From: a virus
Reading direction: 5' to 3' (one strand)
Length of the DNA stretch: 34,860 nt
IMG/VR virus record: IMGVR_UViG_3300031918_000095
Coordinates: 1-34,860 of that record
Part shown: positions 24,617-34,860 of the stretch, one piece after another
Layout of the letters: each line of letters begins with the position of its first letter
Position numbering within the stretch: position 1 is the stretch's first letter
The notes under the pieces: model-generated
Seen by the model: only the letters and a program-made list of their open reading frames with translations
Databases searched by the model: none
Told to the model about the DNA's origin: nothing
Translations under genes and position numbers: made by a program

Positions 24617-24646
24617 TTGACAGTTTTATATGAGGTGGAGTATAAT
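24617..24646 (+). promoter_or_regulatory. Consensus promoter of the chaperonin operon
   Basis: TTGACA (24617-24622), 18-bp spacer, TATAAT (24641-24646): both boxes perfect. The expected start near 24653 leaves a leader of about 25 nt. It begins immediately after the NinG-like stop and serves eight genes up to the terminator at 27855. Confidence 0.8.
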
Positions 24647-24677
24647 ATCACTATTATTAGTAATTTTAGTATAAATT

Positions 24678-24854
24678 ATGTCTAAAGAAGAAAAAAGTGC
24701 AGAACAAGTAGAGTTCGAAAAGGTCGCAGGCGAAGCCGCCAAAGAAGTTAACGAACTTTTATCAAGTAAGGGCTTAGTTTTAAGTATCCAGATGATTTAT
24801 GGAGACTCTGGTATCACAGCAAAGCCTGTAATTATAAAAGACCCAAATGCTTAG
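24678..24854 (+). CDS. 58-residue acidic protein, chaperonin operon
   Basis: MSKEEKSAEQVEFEKVAGEA, a helix (AAKEVNELLSSK), then beta strands GLVLSIQMIYGDSGITAKPV. First cistron behind the consensus promoter. It overlaps the next gene by eight bases. It may be a small regulator or a chaperone-substrate adaptor. Not recognised. Confidence 0.6.
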   Translation: MSKEEKSAEQVEFEKVAGEAAKEVNELLSSKGLVLSIQMIYGDSGITAKPVIIKDPNA

Positions 24855-25095
24855 TTTTTTATTAGGGCTAGTGCTTGGACTAGTTGGAGGATTCATCGGA
24901 GGATTATTTTTCTATGCCAAACGAGTGCATAAGAATATCAAGACCGAAGAAGTAACCCGCGCAACTATTAACTCAATCATAAATGAGCAAACTCCAAAAG
25001 GAGAGTTCATCACTGTGAATAAAACAGAGCAAATTATTAAAGACCACTCAGGAGATCTCGCCCTGGGAGATATATTAGAAGATGAAGACAGATAA
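24847..25095 (+). CDS. Membrane-anchored small protein, 82 aa
   Basis: A Gly/Leu-rich N-terminal membrane span (MLSFLLGLVLGLVGGFIGGL), then a basic segment (YAKRVHKNIK) and a polar tail with an acidic end (LGDILEDEDR). The span could be a signal anchor with the body in the cytoplasm. Overlaps the preceding gene and ends one base before the next ATG (TAATATG). Confidence 0.55.
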   Translation: MLSFLLGLVLGLVGGFIGGLFFYAKRVHKNIKTEEVTRATINSIINEQTPKGEFITVNKTEQIIKDHSGDLALGDILEDEDR

Positions 25096-25096
25096 T

Positions 25097-25405
25097 ATGA
25101 TAAAGAAAAAACAATTATTAAGAATACTCATACAAATTGAAGCTAATCAAAACAAGTTAATCGACCTTGAAAAAAATCAATTGCTTCATGTGGGAGGAAA
25201 GCACGATTTAGAAATAAGAGAAAAACTCCAAGCGATATATGATTATCTAGGAGTTAAGGAAACTATAAAGAAAGAAATTGAAACAAGCCCTCAAATAATA
25301 ACAAGATATGGCATTACAGCTTCTTGGGGAAGTTATTATGAAAAACAACCAGAAATAGATACCATTAAAAAGACATTAGTATTAGTTAAGAATAAAAAGA
25401 AGTAA
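25097..25405 (+). CDS. Coiled-coil hypothetical protein, 102 aa
   Basis: I use the ATG at 25097, which forms the common TAA-t-ATG junction with the previous stop; an ATG five codons upstream is also in frame. N-terminal coiled coil (IKKKQLLRILIQIEANQNKL), then a mixed domain (TRYGITASWGSYYEK). It precedes the GroEL-type gene by one base. Function unknown; a phage-specific partner of the chaperonin is possible. Confidence 0.6.
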   Translation: MIKKKQLLRILIQIEANQNKLIDLEKNQLLHVGGKHDLEIREKLQAIYDYLGVKETIKKEIETSPQIITRYGITASWGSYYEKQPEIDTIKKTLVLVKNKKK

Positions 25406-25406
25406 T

Positions 25407-26921
25407 ATGAGTAAGCAAGTAAATTTCAGCAGAGATGCTAAAGATAAAATCAAGGTAGGAATAGACATCGTAGTGAAGTCTATTCGCACAACCATCGGTC
25501 CTAAAGGGCGTAATGCTTTCATAGATGACCAGATGCAACCTAAGATAACCAACGATGGAAAGACCATCGCCAACTCAATAACATTAGAAGATAAGTTCGA
25601 GAATATGGGTGCGTGGCTTGTAAAGAACGCCGCAGGCCAAACAGACGATGAGGCAGGAGACGGAACTTCCACTACCTCTGTCCTTTTGAAAGCAATAATA
25701 GACGAAGCCCAGAAGAGACCAGAGAGTCCAATGGACATCAAACGCTCACTTATAAAATGGGGGGACAAGGTAAATGAATACATAAAAGACATGGCTAAGC
25801 CTGTAAAGGACAACCAGCTCGCAAATGTAGCAACTATCTCCGCAGAAGATGAGACCATAGGTAATTTGATAACAGACATTATAAACAAAGTAGGACGAAG
25901 AGTCCCTATCAATGTAGAGGACAACGTTCTCCCTCAGATAGAATACGAAATATCCCAGGGGCTAGAGACCAACGTAGGGTTCGCCCACCACGCATTTATA
26001 AATAATATAAGAAATGGAACAGCAGAACTGGAAAATGTTAGAGTGTTTGCAACAGACAGACGAATCTCTTCACTCCCAGACCTTATGGTCTTATTGCAAC
26101 TCCTGGAGACAAACAAGATCACAACCCTGGTAATCCTAGCAAGTGATATAGATAACGCAGTGCTTGGAACCCTAGTAAACTCAAAGTCAGCAGGAATGTT
26201 CAACTCACTAGTAATCCAAGCCCGTAATGCAGACCTAGAAGATATGGTAGCAATGTCTGGCGCAACTCTCGTATCAGAACTCACAGGTATAAAGCTATCA
26301 GAAGTAAAGCTAGAACACTTGGGTAAGGTAGAGAGAATCGTCTCAAGTAACAAAAAGACTTTAATCATAAACAACTCTCCAAAAGCTAAAGAGAAAGAAG
26401 AAACCCTCCGCGCAATGGTAGAGAACACAAAGAACATCTACGAGAAGAAGTTCCTAAACGACAGAGCAGATAAACTCGCAGGAGGAGTAGCAACCATCAA
26501 GGTAGGCGCTCACGTAGATACAGAACGAGAATACCAGAAGTATAAGATAGAAGACGCCATAAACGCCACAAAATCAGCCCTAGAAGAGGGAATTGTAGAG
26601 GGTGGAGGTATGTGTCTCTACCGCATAAGTAACAAGCTAAAGGGCAACTCAGCAGGAGAAGTGATCCTACGAAACGCGCTCAAAGAACCTCTACGAGCAA
26701 TCATAGAGAACTGTAACGAAGATTACACATCGATAGTAAAGAAACTCCCAAACAAGAAAGGCTACGATGCAAAGAACGACAAAGCAGTAGATATGATAAA
26801 GGCAGGTATTATAGACCCAGCAAGAGTAACAAGGTGTGCAGTAACAAACGCATTACAAAGTGCAGCTAATTACATTACCATGGAGGTTTGTATCACTGAT
26901 AAACAAGATGATAAAAAATAA
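25407..26921 (+). CDS. groL: Phage-encoded GroEL-type chaperonin
   Basis: 504 residues, shorter than bacterial GroEL (about 540). Equatorial motifs are present: TIGPKGRNAFID (29-40), ITNDGKT with Asp50, EDKFENMGAWLVKNA (61-75) and GDGTSTTSVLL (84-94, the ATP loop with Asp85). The hinge/ATPase Asp383 is in IEDAINATKSALEEGIVEGG, and DPARVTRCAVTNAL lies near the end. The apical domain (about 186-360) is diverged: APGFGDRRK, near-invariant in GroEL, is missing and the stretch is about six residues shorter (IQARNADLEDM), while GYLSPYF becomes GFAHHAF. There is no GGM tail; the end is DKQDDKK. An ATP-driven folding chamber for phage proteins, such as the capsid, is the likely role. Confidence 0.9.
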   Translation: MSKQVNFSRDAKDKIKVGIDIVVKSIRTTIGPKGRNAFIDDQMQPKITNDGKTIANSITLEDKFENMGAWLVKNAAGQTDDEAGDGTSTTSVLLKAIIDEAQKRPESPMDIKRSLIKWGDKVNEYIKDMAKPVKDNQLANVATISAEDETIGNLITDIINKVGRRVPINVEDNVLPQIEYEISQGLETNVGFAHHAFINNIRNGTAELENVRVFATDRRISSLPDLMVLLQLLETNKITTLVILASDIDNAVLGTLVNSKSAGMFNSLVIQARNADLEDMVAMSGATLVSELTGIKLSEVKLEHLGKVERIVSSNKKTLIINNSPKAKEKEETLRAMVENTKNIYEKKFLNDRADKLAGGVATIKVGAHVDTEREYQKYKIEDAINATKSALEEGIVEGGGMCLYRISNKLKGNSAGEVILRNALKEPLRAIIENCNEDYTSIVKKLPNKKGYDAKNDKAVDMIKAGIIDPARVTRCAVTNALQSAANYITMEVCITDKQDDKK

Positions 26922-26922
26922 T

Positions 26923-27144
26923 ATGGAAGATATAAATTTAATTGAAAAACTTACTAAAGAAATTGGCTCTAAGTATATGCTTAGAATAGAAAGATGGAAA
27001 GATGAGTATAAACATTGGAGAGCTGGGTTAGATTGGTATGGAGAAAATGATTATACTTTTATTTGTGAAAAACCTACATTAGAAGAATGTTTATTATTAA
27101 TTAAAGAATTTATAGATAAAGAATATGAAACCACTCGGAAATAA
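26923..27144 (+). CDS. Small acidic protein between GroEL and GroES
   Basis: 73 residues from the ATG at 26923, which sits one base after the GroEL stop (TAATATG). MEDINLIEKLTKEIGSKYML, then aromatic-rich WRAGLDWYGENDYTFICE and a helix. Its last 20 bases overlap the GroES-like start. It lies between the two chaperonin genes and is absent from bacterial groESL operons, so it is a candidate phage-specific cofactor. Family unknown. Confidence 0.6.
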   Translation: MEDINLIEKLTKEIGSKYMLRIERWKDEYKHWRAGLDWYGENDYTFICEKPTLEECLLLIKEFIDKEYETTRK

Positions 27145-27409
27145 GATAATGCTAGATATAAAAGAAGTTAAAATTGGCGCAATACAATCTGACGCAATAG
27201 AAGAACATGGAACTATAATTGCGATAGGAGGTAATGCTTTCGTTACACTAGTAAAAAATAACCCAGATATTACAGACGAAGAGAATACAAATGATTTAAT
27301 AGGTAAAACTCTATACTTCAAAGCCTGGGCAGTAGACGTTATAACTAAAGGTCAAGACAAATACTACTTTATAAGTTCAGATAGTGACGCGATATGCGCC
27401 ATCGAATAA
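27125..27409 (+). CDS. groS: GroES-type co-chaperonin
   Basis: 94 residues. The GroES pattern is clear: MKPLGNKIMLDIKEV (cf. IRPLHDRVIVKRKEV), HGTIIAIGGNAF (cf. RGEVLAVGNGR), DLIGKTLYFKAWAVDVITK (cf. VGDIVIFNDGYGVKS) and FISSDSDAICAIE (cf. LIMSESDILAIVE). The mobile loop that docks on GroEL is shortened and lacks the usual GGIVL; the segment reads KIGAIQSDAIEE. An insert of about 14 residues (LVKNNPDITDEE) occupies the roof-loop area. T4 gp31 is a precedent for a phage GroES, but here the partner GroEL is encoded too. Confidence 0.8.
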   Translation: MKPLGNKIMLDIKEVKIGAIQSDAIEEHGTIIAIGGNAFVTLVKNNPDITDEENTNDLIGKTLYFKAWAVDVITKGQDKYYFISSDSDAICAIE

Positions 27410-27410
27410 T

Positions 27411-27602
27411 ATGAAAAAAATAATATCACCAGAGCAAGCAAAAGAAAATAAAAGAGTATTAAATGTTAATAAGTTTATAAGAGTATTCAATGCTTCTAAA
27501 AACCACGAAGAACGCGCCGCTCTAATGAGTAAAATAGAAAAGTATACCACTAGATATGACGCTCTAAGAGTAAAGGAAGCAGAAGAAAAGGCTAAAAAAT
27601 AA
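27411..27602 (+). CDS. 63-residue basic helical protein
   Basis: MKKIISPEQAKENKRVLNVN then FNASKNHEERAALMSKIEKY and a charged end EAEEKAKK. Start chosen by the TAATATG junction after the GroES stop. All-helical and Lys/Glu-rich. Function unknown; part of the chaperonin operon. Confidence 0.55.
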   Translation: MKKIISPEQAKENKRVLNVNKFIRVFNASKNHEERAALMSKIEKYTTRYDALRVKEAEEKAKK

Positions 27603-27603
27603 T

Positions 27604-27822
27604 ATGTGTGGCGACAATAAAAACTCAGTACATAAGATGAAAGACTTAGTAAACGATGAGCGAATACTCATAGCTTATTGTGAAAGGTGTAAATTCCGCG
27701 CTTATATCAGAAAGTACGATGGAAGAACAGACCCTAAGTATGGAAAGATATTCAGGAGAGACACACTACAACCAGGAAGTAACTTGTACTGGAAAGAGTA
27801 TGGACACATGAAGGTAGTATAG
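27604..27822 (+). CDS. 72-residue zinc-knuckle protein
   Basis: MCGDNKNSVHKMKDLVNDER, AYCERCKFRAYIRKYDGR (about 25-42) with one CxxC and an early Cys/His, and a Trp/Tyr-rich end (NLYWKEYGHMKVV). Last gene of the chaperonin operon; ends in TAG about 30 bases ahead of the terminator. Possibly nucleic-acid binding. Confidence 0.6.
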   Translation: MCGDNKNSVHKMKDLVNDERILIAYCERCKFRAYIRKYDGRTDPKYGKIFRRDTLQPGSNLYWKEYGHMKVV

Positions 27823-27854
27823 TATAATAAAGTTGTGACACTTATATCACATTA

Positions 27855-27886
27855 AAAAGGCCTCAACTTTCGTTGGGGCTTTTTTA
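27855..27886. terminator. Bidirectional intrinsic terminator
   Basis: GCCTCAAC (27860-27867), TTTC loop, GTTGGGGC (27872-27879), one T-G pair, followed by TTTTTT and preceded by AAAAAG. It ends the chaperonin operon on the plus strand and the HNH gene on the minus strand. Confidence 0.85.
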
Positions 27887-28171
27887 ATTCTTCTCGTAGT
27901 ATTTGTCTAACCACTCGAATATGAACCGTTCTCCAGTTTCACCATCTTGGGTGTGCCAAAAATAGTTTACTAGATACTCAATACATTCAACAGGATCTTT
28001 ATTGTCAAAGACGTGGTGGAAATGTTGGTGTTTGTCAATATCCAAGATTGCGATATTTTCAATGGTACTTCTACCTCCCCGTGAGGAAGGTACAACGTGA
28101 TGCCGATTAGTGTGGTCGTTCTTCGGTTTAGGCTTTGGCAAGGGCTTCATAAAGACCTTTAATCTTTTCAT
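27884..28171 (-). CDS. HNH-type protein, 95 aa
   Basis: Basic start MKRLKVFMKPLPKPKPKN, then the HNH-like core NRHHVVPSSRGGRSTIENIA (about 22-41) and IDKHQHFHHVF (about 45-55), with a helical end. It lacks Cys pairs, so it is a compact HNH without the usual zinc ribbon. Its start overlaps the previous stop (ATGA). HNH proteins beside terminase genes help cut DNA at packaging in some phages; this may be one, or a mobile element. Confidence 0.7.
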   Translation of the reverse strand: MKRLKVFMKPLPKPKPKNDHTNRHHVVPSSRGGRSTIENIAILDIDKHQHFHHVFDNKDPVECIEYLVNYFWHTQDGETGERFIFEWLDKYYEKN

Positions 28172-28878: not shown

Positions 28879-29253
28879 ATGACAACAACTAATCCTGAAA
28901 ATACAGGAAGAAAGCAGGATGGAACATTTGCTCCAGGAGTAAGTGGAAACCCTGCAGGTAAACCAAAGGGAGCAAGACATCTCACTACTTTATTATTTGA
29001 AGCACTACAAAAGAAGATCCCAGGAAGAGATGAAACTTATCAAGACAAGTTAGTGGAAAGAATACTTACCGAAGCTATTGTTAAGGGTAAGGGAGATATG
29101 ATAAAACTCGCAATGAATTACATTGATGGAATGCCACAGCAAGGAATAGACATCACAACAAACGATGAACCTATCAATGGTCTTAATGATATAAACGTGC
29201 TTGAGATAGCTCGTCGAGTCTCAGCCGAATTGAAAGCTAAAAAAACAAAGTAA
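28879..29253 (+). CDS. Small terminase subunit-like protein
   Basis: 124 residues. The N-terminus has the DUF5681 motif GTFAPGVSGNPAGKPKGARH (about 20-39), followed by a helical core (LTTLLFEALQKKIPG, YQDKLVERILTEAIVKG). DUF5681 proteins usually sit just upstream of the large terminase and act as small-subunit DNA-recognition factors. That is the position here. The start is fixed by the leaderless promoter. Confidence 0.7.
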   Translation: MTTTNPENTGRKQDGTFAPGVSGNPAGKPKGARHLTTLLFEALQKKIPGRDETYQDKLVERILTEAIVKGKGDMIKLAMNYIDGMPQQGIDITTNDEPINGLNDINVLEIARRVSAELKAKKTK

Positions 29254-29254
29254 T

Positions 29255-29389
29255 ATGAATAAAGCAAAAATGGTATGTGTTTCTAAAATGTCTATGTTAA
29301 AAGAGCATAAGAAACTTATCCCAATGTTAGAGAAGGTAAATCCTAAAGAGGCTAAAGCCCAAACTAAGGAGATGAAGAAATATAAATAA
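29255..29389 (+). CDS. 44-residue basic peptide
   Basis: MNKAKMVCVSKMSMLKEHKK then KLIPMLEKVNPKEAKAQTKE: Lys/Met-rich and helical. The TAATATG junction links it to the small terminase, and its stop overlaps the large-terminase start by one base (TAATG). Too short for most callers. It may be a packaging accessory. Confidence 0.55.
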   Translation: MNKAKMVCVSKMSMLKEHKKLIPMLEKVNPKEAKAQTKEMKKYK

Positions 29390-30981
29390 TGGACGAGAAA
29401 CTAAAAGAAATGCTAGGTCTAGTGGATATCCATATCTTCCTAGAGACTAACAACATAAAGAACGAACAGGGAGAAAAGCTAGACTTCCACAATCACGCCT
29501 TCTTATGGGACATTTTCGCAGACCAAGCTCCACACCAAGCTATAATGAAAGCCGCGCAGATAGGATTTACTACCACAGCAATACTTAAAAGCCTATGGTT
29601 AGCATACACAAAGAAGATGGATATGATTTACACCATGCCAACCTTCTCAGACGTGCAGACCCTGGTTACATCAAAGGTGGACCGCATAATAGAACAGAAC
29701 CCAATACTCCAGGAATGGGTAGAAAAGAAAGATACCATACAGCAGAAGCGTGTGGGTAATTCTGTTATATACTACCGTGGAACGTGGAGTGAACGTGAAG
29801 CCCTATCAACATCCTCAGACTTAAACGTCCACGATGAGGTGGACCGCTCTAACCTTAAGGTGGTGGACCAATACTATTCACGTCTCCAACACTCAAAGTA
29901 TGGCTGGCAGTGGCTATTTAGTAACCCAAGTGTTCCAGAGGTAGGAGTTCATAAACTATGGTCCAGGAGTGACCAGAAGCATTGGTTCGTAAAATGCCCG
30001 CAATGTAATAAAAAGCAATACATGGTAATGGAGAACATTATGAAGAAAGAAGGAAGTGAGGACTATTACTATGGTTGTAACAACTGTAAGACAGAACTAA
30101 ATAGAAACGATGGAGAGTGGATCGCCCGCTGGAAGGACAGAACATATAACAAAGATACAAATCCAAATGGAGTAAATGGCTACTGGATTTCATTATTGAT
30201 GGCTCCGTGGGTGTCCGCTAACACAGTCAAACACTTAGAGAAAACAAAGCCCGCTGACTTCTTTGCTAACTTCGTACTAGGGATACCTTACACTGGCTCA
30301 GGTAACACGGTCCAGAAGGATATGATTATGCGTAACCTTACTGACGCAATAAACGAACAAAAAGGACGCATTGTTATTGGAGTAGACCCAGGAAGTGATA
30401 TCAGATATGTGATAGGTAACCGAGACGGGATATTCTATTACGGAGACTGTAAGGGTTATGGAGAACTCGAGGCTCTTATGAAGCGCTGGCCTAAAGCAAT
30501 TATGGTAATCGACTCAGGAGGAGACTTGATAGCAAGCCGTGAGTTACGATCAAGATACAAAAACCGCATATTCCTAGCTTACTACCGCTTAGACAGAAAG
30601 AGCGAAGAGTTATTCTCATGGAACGATGATGAGGGTTCAGTAACAGTTGACCGCAACAGAGGCATTCAGCTATTGATAGATGAGTTCACAGACAGAAGAA
30701 TACCAATCTATGGGACCGAAACTGACTGGTATGATTACTGGGTTCATTGGTCCCACATCTATCGAATAAGTGAAGAGGACCAACTAGGTAAACTTCGCCA
30801 CAAGTGGATGAGAAGTGATCGTGACGATTTCGTCCACGCAACACTTTACTGGAGAGCAGGAATGGATAGGTTTATGGATGGAGAAGGAGCAATCATTAAC
30901 ATACAAGAAAGTATAGGAGAAACGGGTTACACTACCACTGCCGATGGAAAAAACTTGTTTCGTCCACAAAGAATATACTAA
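29389..30981 (+). CDS. terL: Large terminase subunit (GpA-type)
   Basis: 530 residues. ATPase: Walker-A-like AAQIGFTT (55-62, the relaxed form of this family) and Walker B LNVHDE (145-150). A zinc ribbon follows: CPQC (203-206) with CNNC (230-233), typical of lambda GpA-type enzymes. The C-terminal RNase H-like nuclease has GVDPGSD (Asp333), VIDSGGD (Asp375) and DRDDFVHA (Asp480). It cuts and translocates DNA into the procapsid through the portal encoded downstream. The preceding microprotein overlaps its ATG by one base. Confidence 0.9.
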   Translation: MDEKLKEMLGLVDIHIFLETNNIKNEQGEKLDFHNHAFLWDIFADQAPHQAIMKAAQIGFTTTAILKSLWLAYTKKMDMIYTMPTFSDVQTLVTSKVDRIIEQNPILQEWVEKKDTIQQKRVGNSVIYYRGTWSEREALSTSSDLNVHDEVDRSNLKVVDQYYSRLQHSKYGWQWLFSNPSVPEVGVHKLWSRSDQKHWFVKCPQCNKKQYMVMENIMKKEGSEDYYYGCNNCKTELNRNDGEWIARWKDRTYNKDTNPNGVNGYWISLLMAPWVSANTVKHLEKTKPADFFANFVLGIPYTGSGNTVQKDMIMRNLTDAINEQKGRIVIGVDPGSDIRYVIGNRDGIFYYGDCKGYGELEALMKRWPKAIMVIDSGGDLIASRELRSRYKNRIFLAYYRLDRKSEELFSWNDDEGSVTVDRNRGIQLLIDEFTDRRIPIYGTETDWYDYWVHWSHIYRISEEDQLGKLRHKWMRSDRDDFVHATLYWRAGMDRFMDGEGAIINIQESIGETGYTTTADGKNLFRPQRIY

Positions 30982-31046: not shown

Positions 31047-32903
31047 ATGGGAATAATAAATAATCGTAACGCGTTCAATTCAGTTAGAGGAGTCCAGCAA
31101 CTCTTTGGCCCTTTAAATAAAGGAAAAAAATCACTTGATGAAGATGAGGGTGAAGAACAGTTGCAGCCAGAGTTTGAATCAACAATGACCGAAGAAGAAA
31201 TCATTGCGCTAACTGCGCAGTGGATTTCCGAAGATGCAACTTATCAGAAAGACATCAAGACACAACAAAAAGACAATGTCAATTATTGGTTAGGAAAGCA
31301 TTACAATGACCTACAAACATCAGGGACAAAGCGTCCACTGACTGATAATCTTATCTTTGAAGCAGTTGAAACGTTCCTACCTATTGCTACCCGCGCAACC
31401 CCAGAAGCTAACGTGTCTACTACTATGGGACAGCAAGACAAGCTAACGAAAGCACTACAACCAATACTTAACTATCAAGGAGAAAGAACCTTAATGAGAA
31501 TGAAGTTGAAGGGCGCAACCCGCGACTGGGTCCTTAATCTTTTAGGTTGTATTAAGATTGTCTGGGATACTACAAAACAAGACTATGATATTAAGAAAGT
31601 CAGCGCAACCCGTTTGATATTTGATAAGAATGCTGAAATAGATGTAGACGGAACTTATTATGGAGAGTTCCTCGGAGAAAGAAAGCGCGCATCTGCTCGT
31701 AAGCTCTCACGAATGTTCCCAAAGAAAGAATCTTACATCAGAACTATGTGTCAGGGAAACTTTGGAACCAACCTCAATTACATTGAATGGAATACAAACT
31801 ACGACCTATTCTTTACTTTAGAACATCAAGTCCTCGGAAAGTTCAAGAACCCACACTGGAACTATGACGGAGAAGTAGAGAGAGAAGATCCAAACACAAA
31901 AGCAAAGAAGAAGGAATTTGTTAAGGGAAAAAACCATTTTGATAGACCAATGATACCTTATGTCTTCCTTTCAATCTTTAATCTAGGAAAGCGTCCACAC
32001 GATGAGACTTCCCTAGTCTTCCAGAACATCCCACTACAAGACACTATCAACAAGAGATACCAGCAAATAGACCGCAACGTTGAGGCCCAGAACAATGGTA
32101 TTGTTTTATCAGGTAAATACTTTACAAAAGAACAGGCCGCAGAAGCTGCTACCCAGCTTGCTCGTGGTAACCCACTATGGGTCCCAGAAGGAGACATCAG
32201 CCAGGCATACAAGAGAGATAACGCCCCACAGCTACCAGGAGATGTCTTTAATCACTTGAGAGACGCCCGCAATGAGCTCCGTAACATCTTTGGAACTTCA
32301 GGTTCAAGCCCAGAAGGAACCAAGAGCCAGGAGAGTGTTCGTGGAAAGATACTCATAAATCAATTAGACAGTTCTCGTATTGGTGGAGGGATTACAGAAT
32401 ATATAGAGCTTATGGCTGGAAACCTTTACAACTGGTTCGTCCAGATGATGTATGTTTATTACACAGATGAAAAGACATTCCCAATAGGCTTGGACCGCAA
32501 CAAGGATACAATGGTCGCGATAATCAACACAGACTTCACTCAACCAGTTCACGTAACAGTCAAGTCGGGTTCCCTAGTACCAAAGGATCCACTAACACAG
32601 AGAAACGAGGCTATGGACCTATGGAGCGCGCAAGGAATAGACCCTATCTCATTCTACGAGAAATTAGACTTCCCTAACCCTTATGAATCCGCAAAAGACT
32701 TATTGACATGGACTATGATAAAAGAAGGAGCATTACAACCACAAGCTATGTTCCCAGACTTTGGAGGACCACAGACCGCAGTTCAAGGAGTAGGTAACAG
32801 TGGAGTAGTAAGCGCAGAAGAAAGTAATCAAGCAAGAAACAATACTCCAGCTGAGGCTGTCGGAGCCACATCAGCACAATTATTAGGTAGCGTAAAATTA
32901 TAA
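31047..32903 (+). CDS. Portal protein
   Basis: 618 residues, the usual size for podovirus portals. An acidic N-terminal arm (DEDEGEEQLQPEFE) leads to helices starting EEEIIALTAQWISE. The wing contains beta strands (DYDIKKVSATRLIFDKNAEI). A long helical stem follows (PLQDTINKRYQQIDRNVEAQ, about 325-345), then a Gln/Ala-rich C-terminus. It forms the dodecameric ring where DNA enters the head. It follows the large terminase and has its own promoter. Confidence 0.8.
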   Translation: MGIINNRNAFNSVRGVQQLFGPLNKGKKSLDEDEGEEQLQPEFESTMTEEEIIALTAQWISEDATYQKDIKTQQKDNVNYWLGKHYNDLQTSGTKRPLTDNLIFEAVETFLPIATRATPEANVSTTMGQQDKLTKALQPILNYQGERTLMRMKLKGATRDWVLNLLGCIKIVWDTTKQDYDIKKVSATRLIFDKNAEIDVDGTYYGEFLGERKRASARKLSRMFPKKESYIRTMCQGNFGTNLNYIEWNTNYDLFFTLEHQVLGKFKNPHWNYDGEVEREDPNTKAKKKEFVKGKNHFDRPMIPYVFLSIFNLGKRPHDETSLVFQNIPLQDTINKRYQQIDRNVEAQNNGIVLSGKYFTKEQAAEAATQLARGNPLWVPEGDISQAYKRDNAPQLPGDVFNHLRDARNELRNIFGTSGSSPEGTKSQESVRGKILINQLDSSRIGGGITEYIELMAGNLYNWFVQMMYVYYTDEKTFPIGLDRNKDTMVAIINTDFTQPVHVTVKSGSLVPKDPLTQRNEAMDLWSAQGIDPISFYEKLDFPNPYESAKDLLTWTMIKEGALQPQAMFPDFGGPQTAVQGVGNSGVVSAEESNQARNNTPAEAVGATSAQLLGSVKL

Positions 32904-34813: not shown

Positions 34814-34860
34814 ATGGCATTTACAAACAGAGTTGACACAATCACACTTGACTATCTTGT
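34814..34860 (+). CDS. Major capsid protein, N-terminus only
   Basis: ATG at 34814, preceded by ATTATT with no Shine-Dalgarno sequence. The first 15 codons read MAFTNRVDTITLDYL and the frame is open to the window edge. Its position directly after the scaffold identifies it as the likely HK97-fold major capsid protein. Too short to confirm by motif. Confidence 0.6.
   Translation, partial: MAFTNRVDTITLDYL

Follow-up and report, generated by a model that had tools for sequence, protein, structure and literature searches.

The window analysed here is a linear contig of 34,860 nucleotides (nt), the virus record IMGVR_UViG_3300031918_000095, and the element in question is a cassette of eight genes that includes a GroEL-type and a GroES-type chaperonin gene. 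The cassette opens with a sigma-70 consensus promoter, TTGACA-18-TATAAT (24617-24646, + strand), which matches at 12 of 12 positions and lies immediately past the stop codon of a gene for a NinG-like nuclease; it is the sole perfect match in the window, where 0.05 would be expected by chance. Downstream on the + strand lie, in order, frames of 58, 82, 107, 504, 73, 94, 63, and 72 amino acids. The series ends at a terminator hairpin between convergent genes (27851-27888), beyond which lies a convergent HNH gene. An 81-nt stretch containing the hairpin folds at -23.8 kcal/mol (z -5.7; 0/200 shuffles as stable), and since an A-run precedes the hairpin and a T-run follows it, the terminator should be usable in both directions. 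Promoter, gene series, and bidirectional terminator had all been described in the first-pass annotation of this DNA and are borne out. Several of the cassette genes between 25093 and 27606 are joined by TAATATG, in which one base separates a stop codon from a start codon; this string occurs 18 times in the window against 11 expected.

The 504-amino acid (aa) protein (25407-26921, + strand) is a GroEL-type group I chaperonin, as first annotated: protein profiles, alignment to solved structures, and predicted fold agree. It matches PHROG 5725, chaperonin groEL (5e-108), and Pfam Cpn60_TCP1 (5e-46), aligns over its full length with solved GroELs (about 1e-90), and exceeds the NCBIfam cut-offs of NF009487 (413 bits; cut-off 352) and NF000592 (400 bits; cut-off 397), though not that of the stricter equivalog TIGR02348 (400 vs 582). 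Residues that handle ATP and Mg (T30, G32, P33, D52, D87, T89-T91, D398, G414-416, D495) are all kept or conservatively replaced (T90S). An AlphaFold2 (AF2) model has the three-domain fold, with template modelling (TM) scores of 0.80-0.84 to the GroES-bound chains 5opx, 8wuc, and 1aon. In phylogenetic trees the protein falls in a phage-only clade of seven GroELs with full support (100/100). One clade member (L001:8001-9521) carries GDAT instead of GDGT in its nucleotide-binding motif (G88A). A second phage-only GroEL clade was also seen (L012, L016, L018, L019, L021, L022, L024, L026); the two of its loci that were read, L012 and L026, have GroEL flanked by terminase and portal, and in L026 a GroES gene directly precedes it.

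The 94-aa protein (27125-27409, + strand) is a real but diverged GroES-type co-chaperonin with a short mobile loop and an FKAW[AG]VD motif. On its own it matches neither Pfam PF00166 (Cpn10) nor NCBIfam GroES, a result that would count against the first-pass call of a GroES-type gene, though the relatives of the protein and its fold overturn it. PF00166 is matched by six of the eight family members (best 2.4e-7) and NCBIfam GroES by five of the eight. A four-member family profile matches solved co-chaperonins at 1e-5 to 2e-3, family profiles rank solved co-chaperonins ahead of anything else, and the phage profile retrieves the annotated Salmonella GroES as well as genes flanking groEL in Patescibacteria genomes. 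For the AF2 model of the window protein, the matches in the PDB at ranks 1-32 are all Cpn10 with probability 1.00, T4 gp31 included. Segment 16-22, at the expected position of the mobile loop, is predicted to be disordered (predicted local distance difference test, pLDDT, below 50). Conserved across the family are a P, a G, FKAW[AG]VD, and the mobile-loop pattern, and the window protein has in addition a private 14-residue insertion found in no relative, which is probably why it misses the single-sequence profiles.

Searches with GroEL, GroES, and terminase recovered seven further lineages from separate assemblies: L001 (40.4 kb), L031 (11.9 kb), L033 (7.7 kb), L035/L036 (38.7 and 11.4 kb), L038 (40.2 kb), L039 (38.7 kb), and L040, a 39.8-kb contig in a metagenome-assembled genome (MAG). 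With the window these make eight related phages or fragments of a 35-40 kb phage class. The order GroEL, GroES, zinc-finger-like gene, small terminase subunit (TerS, placed before the large subunit in some), large terminase subunit (TerL), and portal is kept in the window, L001, L031, L033, L036, L038, L039, and L040, and L035 and L036, from two metagenomes, share an identical 2,249-bp cassette. GroEL pairs share 65-68% identity, their synonymous sites are saturated, and their nonsynonymous divergence (dN) is 0.23-0.28; GroES and TerL are similar, and close GroEL and GroES pairs together span 65-74% protein identity at a dN of about 0.2-0.3. The GroEL-GroES pair is thus under purifying selection, inherited with the phage, and selected for function.

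We then compared the contact surfaces of the clade with those of other GroELs. Each of the seven complete GroELs of the clade is shorter at three places, about 106-110 (A108/A109), 426-437 (E434), and 274-284, and no deletion of such size was found there in 14 Patescibacteria, 9 Bacillota, 12 Bacteroidota, and 8 sister-phage GroELs. In E. coli GroEL the rings touch at two sites, of which K105, A109, and E434 form the left one, and the solved GroEL mutants A109C, K105A, and E434K are, by title, among the structure matches. The E434 loop is also lost in L029, an elemovirus, and in L066. At the right inter-ring site (R452/E461/S463/V464) the clade keeps R/K452 and has an altered V464. The groove that receives GroES differs as well: positions 234, 237, and 264 are L, L, and V (or L) in 14/14 Patescibacteria GroELs, as in host-type GroELs generally, and are scattered in the clade, while the mobile loop of the phage GroES is about 4-7 residues shorter than the bacterial one. 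Deletions, groove changes, and short loop together suggest a co-evolved, private ring-lid interface with changed ring-ring contacts. Finally, R197 is replaced by V or T in the clade; the R197-E386 pair to which it belongs has been described as key for GroEL function (PMC9598537).

The cassette lies directly upstream of the packaging genes. These comprise a TerS candidate (28879-29253, + strand), assigned by position and by homologues that precede TerL in L036 and L040, a TerL of the GpA type (29389-30981, + strand), assigned through the Pfam GpA_ATPase match of its L033 homologue, and a portal protein (31047-32903, + strand; PHROG 156 portal, 4e-15). Past residue 129, the L033 TerL (L033:4668-7205) has about 320 inserted aa that look like an intein, starting with C and ending before T; in this TerL, Pfam finds only GpA_ATPase. 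Only the first 47 bases of the major capsid protein gene are present (34814-34860), and a 6.5-kb contig, L030, with a terminase identical to that of the window, carries the capsid gene onward. As the contig ends within the start of this gene and no end repeats were found, the window falls short of a whole genome. Neither a tail-tube nor a tape-measure gene was recognised in it, but many of its large genes have no match at all. The short tail initially proposed is not shown by this contig.

The remaining genes of the cassette are small and mostly peculiar to the window. No homologue was found in any fetched relative for the 58-aa (24678-24854), 107-aa (25082-25405), 73-aa (26923-27144), and 63-aa (27411-27602) frames, all on the + strand; the 58-aa and 107-aa frames also lack Pfam and PHROG matches, and the 63-aa frame has a weak match to PHROG 33156 (0.001). 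The 73-aa frame, between GroEL and GroES, is very AT-rich (GC 26%) and had been put forward as a new cofactor. We rejected it as a required cofactor, because the content of this slot is not conserved: L031 and L035 have no gene in the slot, L033 and L038 have a different protein of 66-68 aa, L001 and L039 have small membrane proteins, and L040 has an HNH gene with another small gene. The 82-aa protein (24847-25095, + strand) has an N-terminal membrane helix and homologues upstream of GroEL in L035 (phmmer 8.7e-17) and L001, with which it aligns. The small gene upstream of GroEL in the window, L035, L001, L033, L038, L039, and L040 ends in or near a short motif (LGDIL, LGDVL, IDEVL, IDDLL, LKELL, IDDIL, or IEDIL); L041, a terminase relative without GroEL, has LEEL. 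The 72-aa CxxC zinc-finger-like protein (27604-27822, + strand) lies downstream of GroES in 8/8 related cassettes. It was considered as a chaperonin partner and dropped: its apparent homologue in L041 adjoins a membrane gene, with no chaperonin there, and the gene more likely belongs to the terminase neighbourhood. The stretch in which these two L041 genes adjoin (L041:1039-1682) is a possible empty cassette site.

To what host this lineage belongs was approached through its relatives. The sibling phage L040 sits in a 1.0-Mb MAG, G001. Among the sampled genomes of this MAG's phylum, most measure 0.5-1.2 Mb and 56/59 have no ribosomal protein L30, a pattern that fits Patescibacteria. The next-nearest group of terminases lies in contigs of 819 kb and 1,097 kb from the same phylum and occurs in 5/379 of its genomes other than G001, vs 0/296 others of the Bacteroidota phylum; these loci are without the chaperonin cassette. 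Shine-Dalgarno motifs precede none of 26 long open reading frames in the window (vs 16% inside genes), 1/55 in the other clade loci, and 0/30 in G001 outside the phage, and they are infrequent in Bacteroidota too. We favour Patescibacteria as the host, with Bacteroidota possible. In a careful GroEL tree the clade stood beside Patescibacteria GroELs (98/97). With more references its position was unresolved, and approximately unbiased (AU) tests leave Bacteroidota, Bacillota, and gammaproteobacteria all acceptable as partners, so GroEL phylogeny does not decide the host and we claim no donor lineage for GroEL. Two further leads were discarded: K51N as a marker of Patescibacteria, which is also present in 4/9 Bacillota, and a 24,298-aa open frame with a GroEL-like end in genome G040, which masked N had produced as an artefact. 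Nothing relevant on Patescibacteria phages with chaperonins turned up in the literature searches made.

Phage chaperonins are less rare than the first-pass annotation supposed. A collection of isolate phages holds 260 records that match GroEL, and GroEL with an annotated GroES is found in elemoviruses, immutoviruses, phi40:1, and the crAss-like cr111_1, so a pair of this kind is already known. New are the lineage, the 35-40 kb genome size class, the interface deletions specific to the clade, and a dedicated lid that has diverged. The Flavobacterium elemoviruses and Cellulophaga phage phi40:1 resemble the window in being short-tailed (for elemoviruses, by their vB_FspP names) and in having both genes annotated, but they have 60-73 kb genomes, Bacteroidota hosts, other gene surroundings, and GroELs about 31-33% identical; the elemovirus GroES is about 22% identical. 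Bacterial GroEL/GroES share with the phage pair both families, catalytic residues, fold, mobile-loop position, and gene co-location. They differ in that the phage order is reversed (GroEL first), identity is about 35%, and the phage proteins have the three deletions (106-110, 426-437, 274-284), no GGM tail, a lost R197, and a shortened GroES mobile loop. T4 gp31 is likewise a phage-owned lid with the Cpn10 fold, matched by the window model at rank 16 (1g31). It works with host GroEL, whereas the window phage encodes its own ring as well. The uncultivated phage ctf1B273 (MW202497.1, 42.9 kb) is similarly small; its GroEL is 31% identical, no GroES is annotated in the stretch shown, and its terminase and portal are not recognised by the window profiles. 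The GroEL-like proteins of EL, OBP, and AR9 probably also have altered ring-ring contacts, but these are giant phages whose chaperonins are reported to act with no co-chaperonin (PMC9598537, PMC7185714), while here GroES is encoded in all eight cassettes.

We consider it probable that the two proteins are a phage-encoded group I chaperonin pair, private to this lineage of 35-40 kb phages and most likely folding the phage's own late proteins. From the features above we infer ring assembly, mutual binding, the altered ring-ring contact, the substrate, and the timing of expression. The 504-aa protein is predicted to form seven-membered, ATP-driven rings, and the 94-aa protein would be the lid, its shortened mobile loop binding the changed hydrophobic groove of a ring with which it would have evolved together. 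The pair would be transcribed as one unit just upstream of the packaging and head genes; its clients would be late proteins, chiefly those of the capsid or elsewhere in the head, and virion assembly would thereby become independent of host GroEL/GroES. GroEL is placed among virion genes repeatedly, between terminase and portal in the sister group (L012, L026), whose gene order differs, and in the 43-kb ctf1B273, and between the tail sheath and tail tube genes in Vibrio phages, as well as beside the packaging genes here, which makes virion-protein folding our best guess. Of the first-pass proposal, virion-protein folding independent of the host is thus plausible for a conserved, phage-owned unit beside packaging and head genes, and the 73-aa cofactor is not supported. 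A narrower version is rather doubtful: that in small phages whose hosts are ultra-small Patescibacteria, rings without one of the two inter-ring sites, single or loosely paired, act with a short-loop GroES that has co-evolved with them and are dedicated to head-protein folding. Several points tell against a private pair serving virion assembly. Position near head genes is indirect evidence of substrate; the studied chaperonins of EL, OBP, and AR9 function lid-free, with endolysin rather than capsid given as their substrate (PMC9598537, PMC7185714); the 14-residue insertion in the window GroES could mean an altered lid in this phage; and in L041 no chaperonin lies between the membrane gene and the zinc-finger-like gene, which means that related phages may be able to do without the pair.

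Two other modes of action are less likely than virion-protein folding. The pair might replace the host chaperonin generally, folding many phage and host proteins where host GroEL is absent, scarce, or unsuitable. The phage GroEL is indeed the only one seen in G001, and no GroEL was seen in 5/39 sampled genomes of its phylum, but 34/39 do have one, the completeness of G001 is not stated, and the membership of L040 in that cell is a binning result only; we regard general replacement as unlikely. Still less probable is an open ring of the EL and OBP kind, with the GroES-like protein a relic or given another job. EL, OBP, and AR9 require no co-chaperonin (PMC9598537, PMC7185714), and the window GroES is divergent and carries its insertion; however, in each of the eight lineages GroEL is followed by a GroES gene that is under purifying selection and has its P, G, FKAW[AG]VD, and mobile-loop pattern conserved. 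Interference, in which phage subunits would enter host GroEL/GroES complexes or compete with them and redirect the host machine, seems very improbable. GroEL subunits can in principle mix and the GroES-binding groove is unlike the host type, but the deletions in equatorial contact loops argue against co-assembly, and a complete ATPase with its own lid exceeds the needs of interference. As for an assembly chimera or stray host DNA, nothing was found in its favour, and recurrence in eight related loci, an identical cassette in two metagenomes, and the phage-only GroEL clade leave it next to no credence.

The features of the two proteins, read from sequence, thus suggest a private ring-lid pair with changed ring-ring contacts that serves virion assembly. 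No lid is involved in the action of the biochemically studied phage chaperonins cited above, T4 gp31 relies on the ring of its host, and a fully viral pair of ring and lid contrasts with both. Its natural loss of the A108/A109 and E434 elements offers a test of whether deletion of inter-ring contacts permits GroES-dependent folding, and its conservation in phages of only 35-40 kb would make it a compact, naturally occurring case for testing why viruses bring protein folding under their own control.

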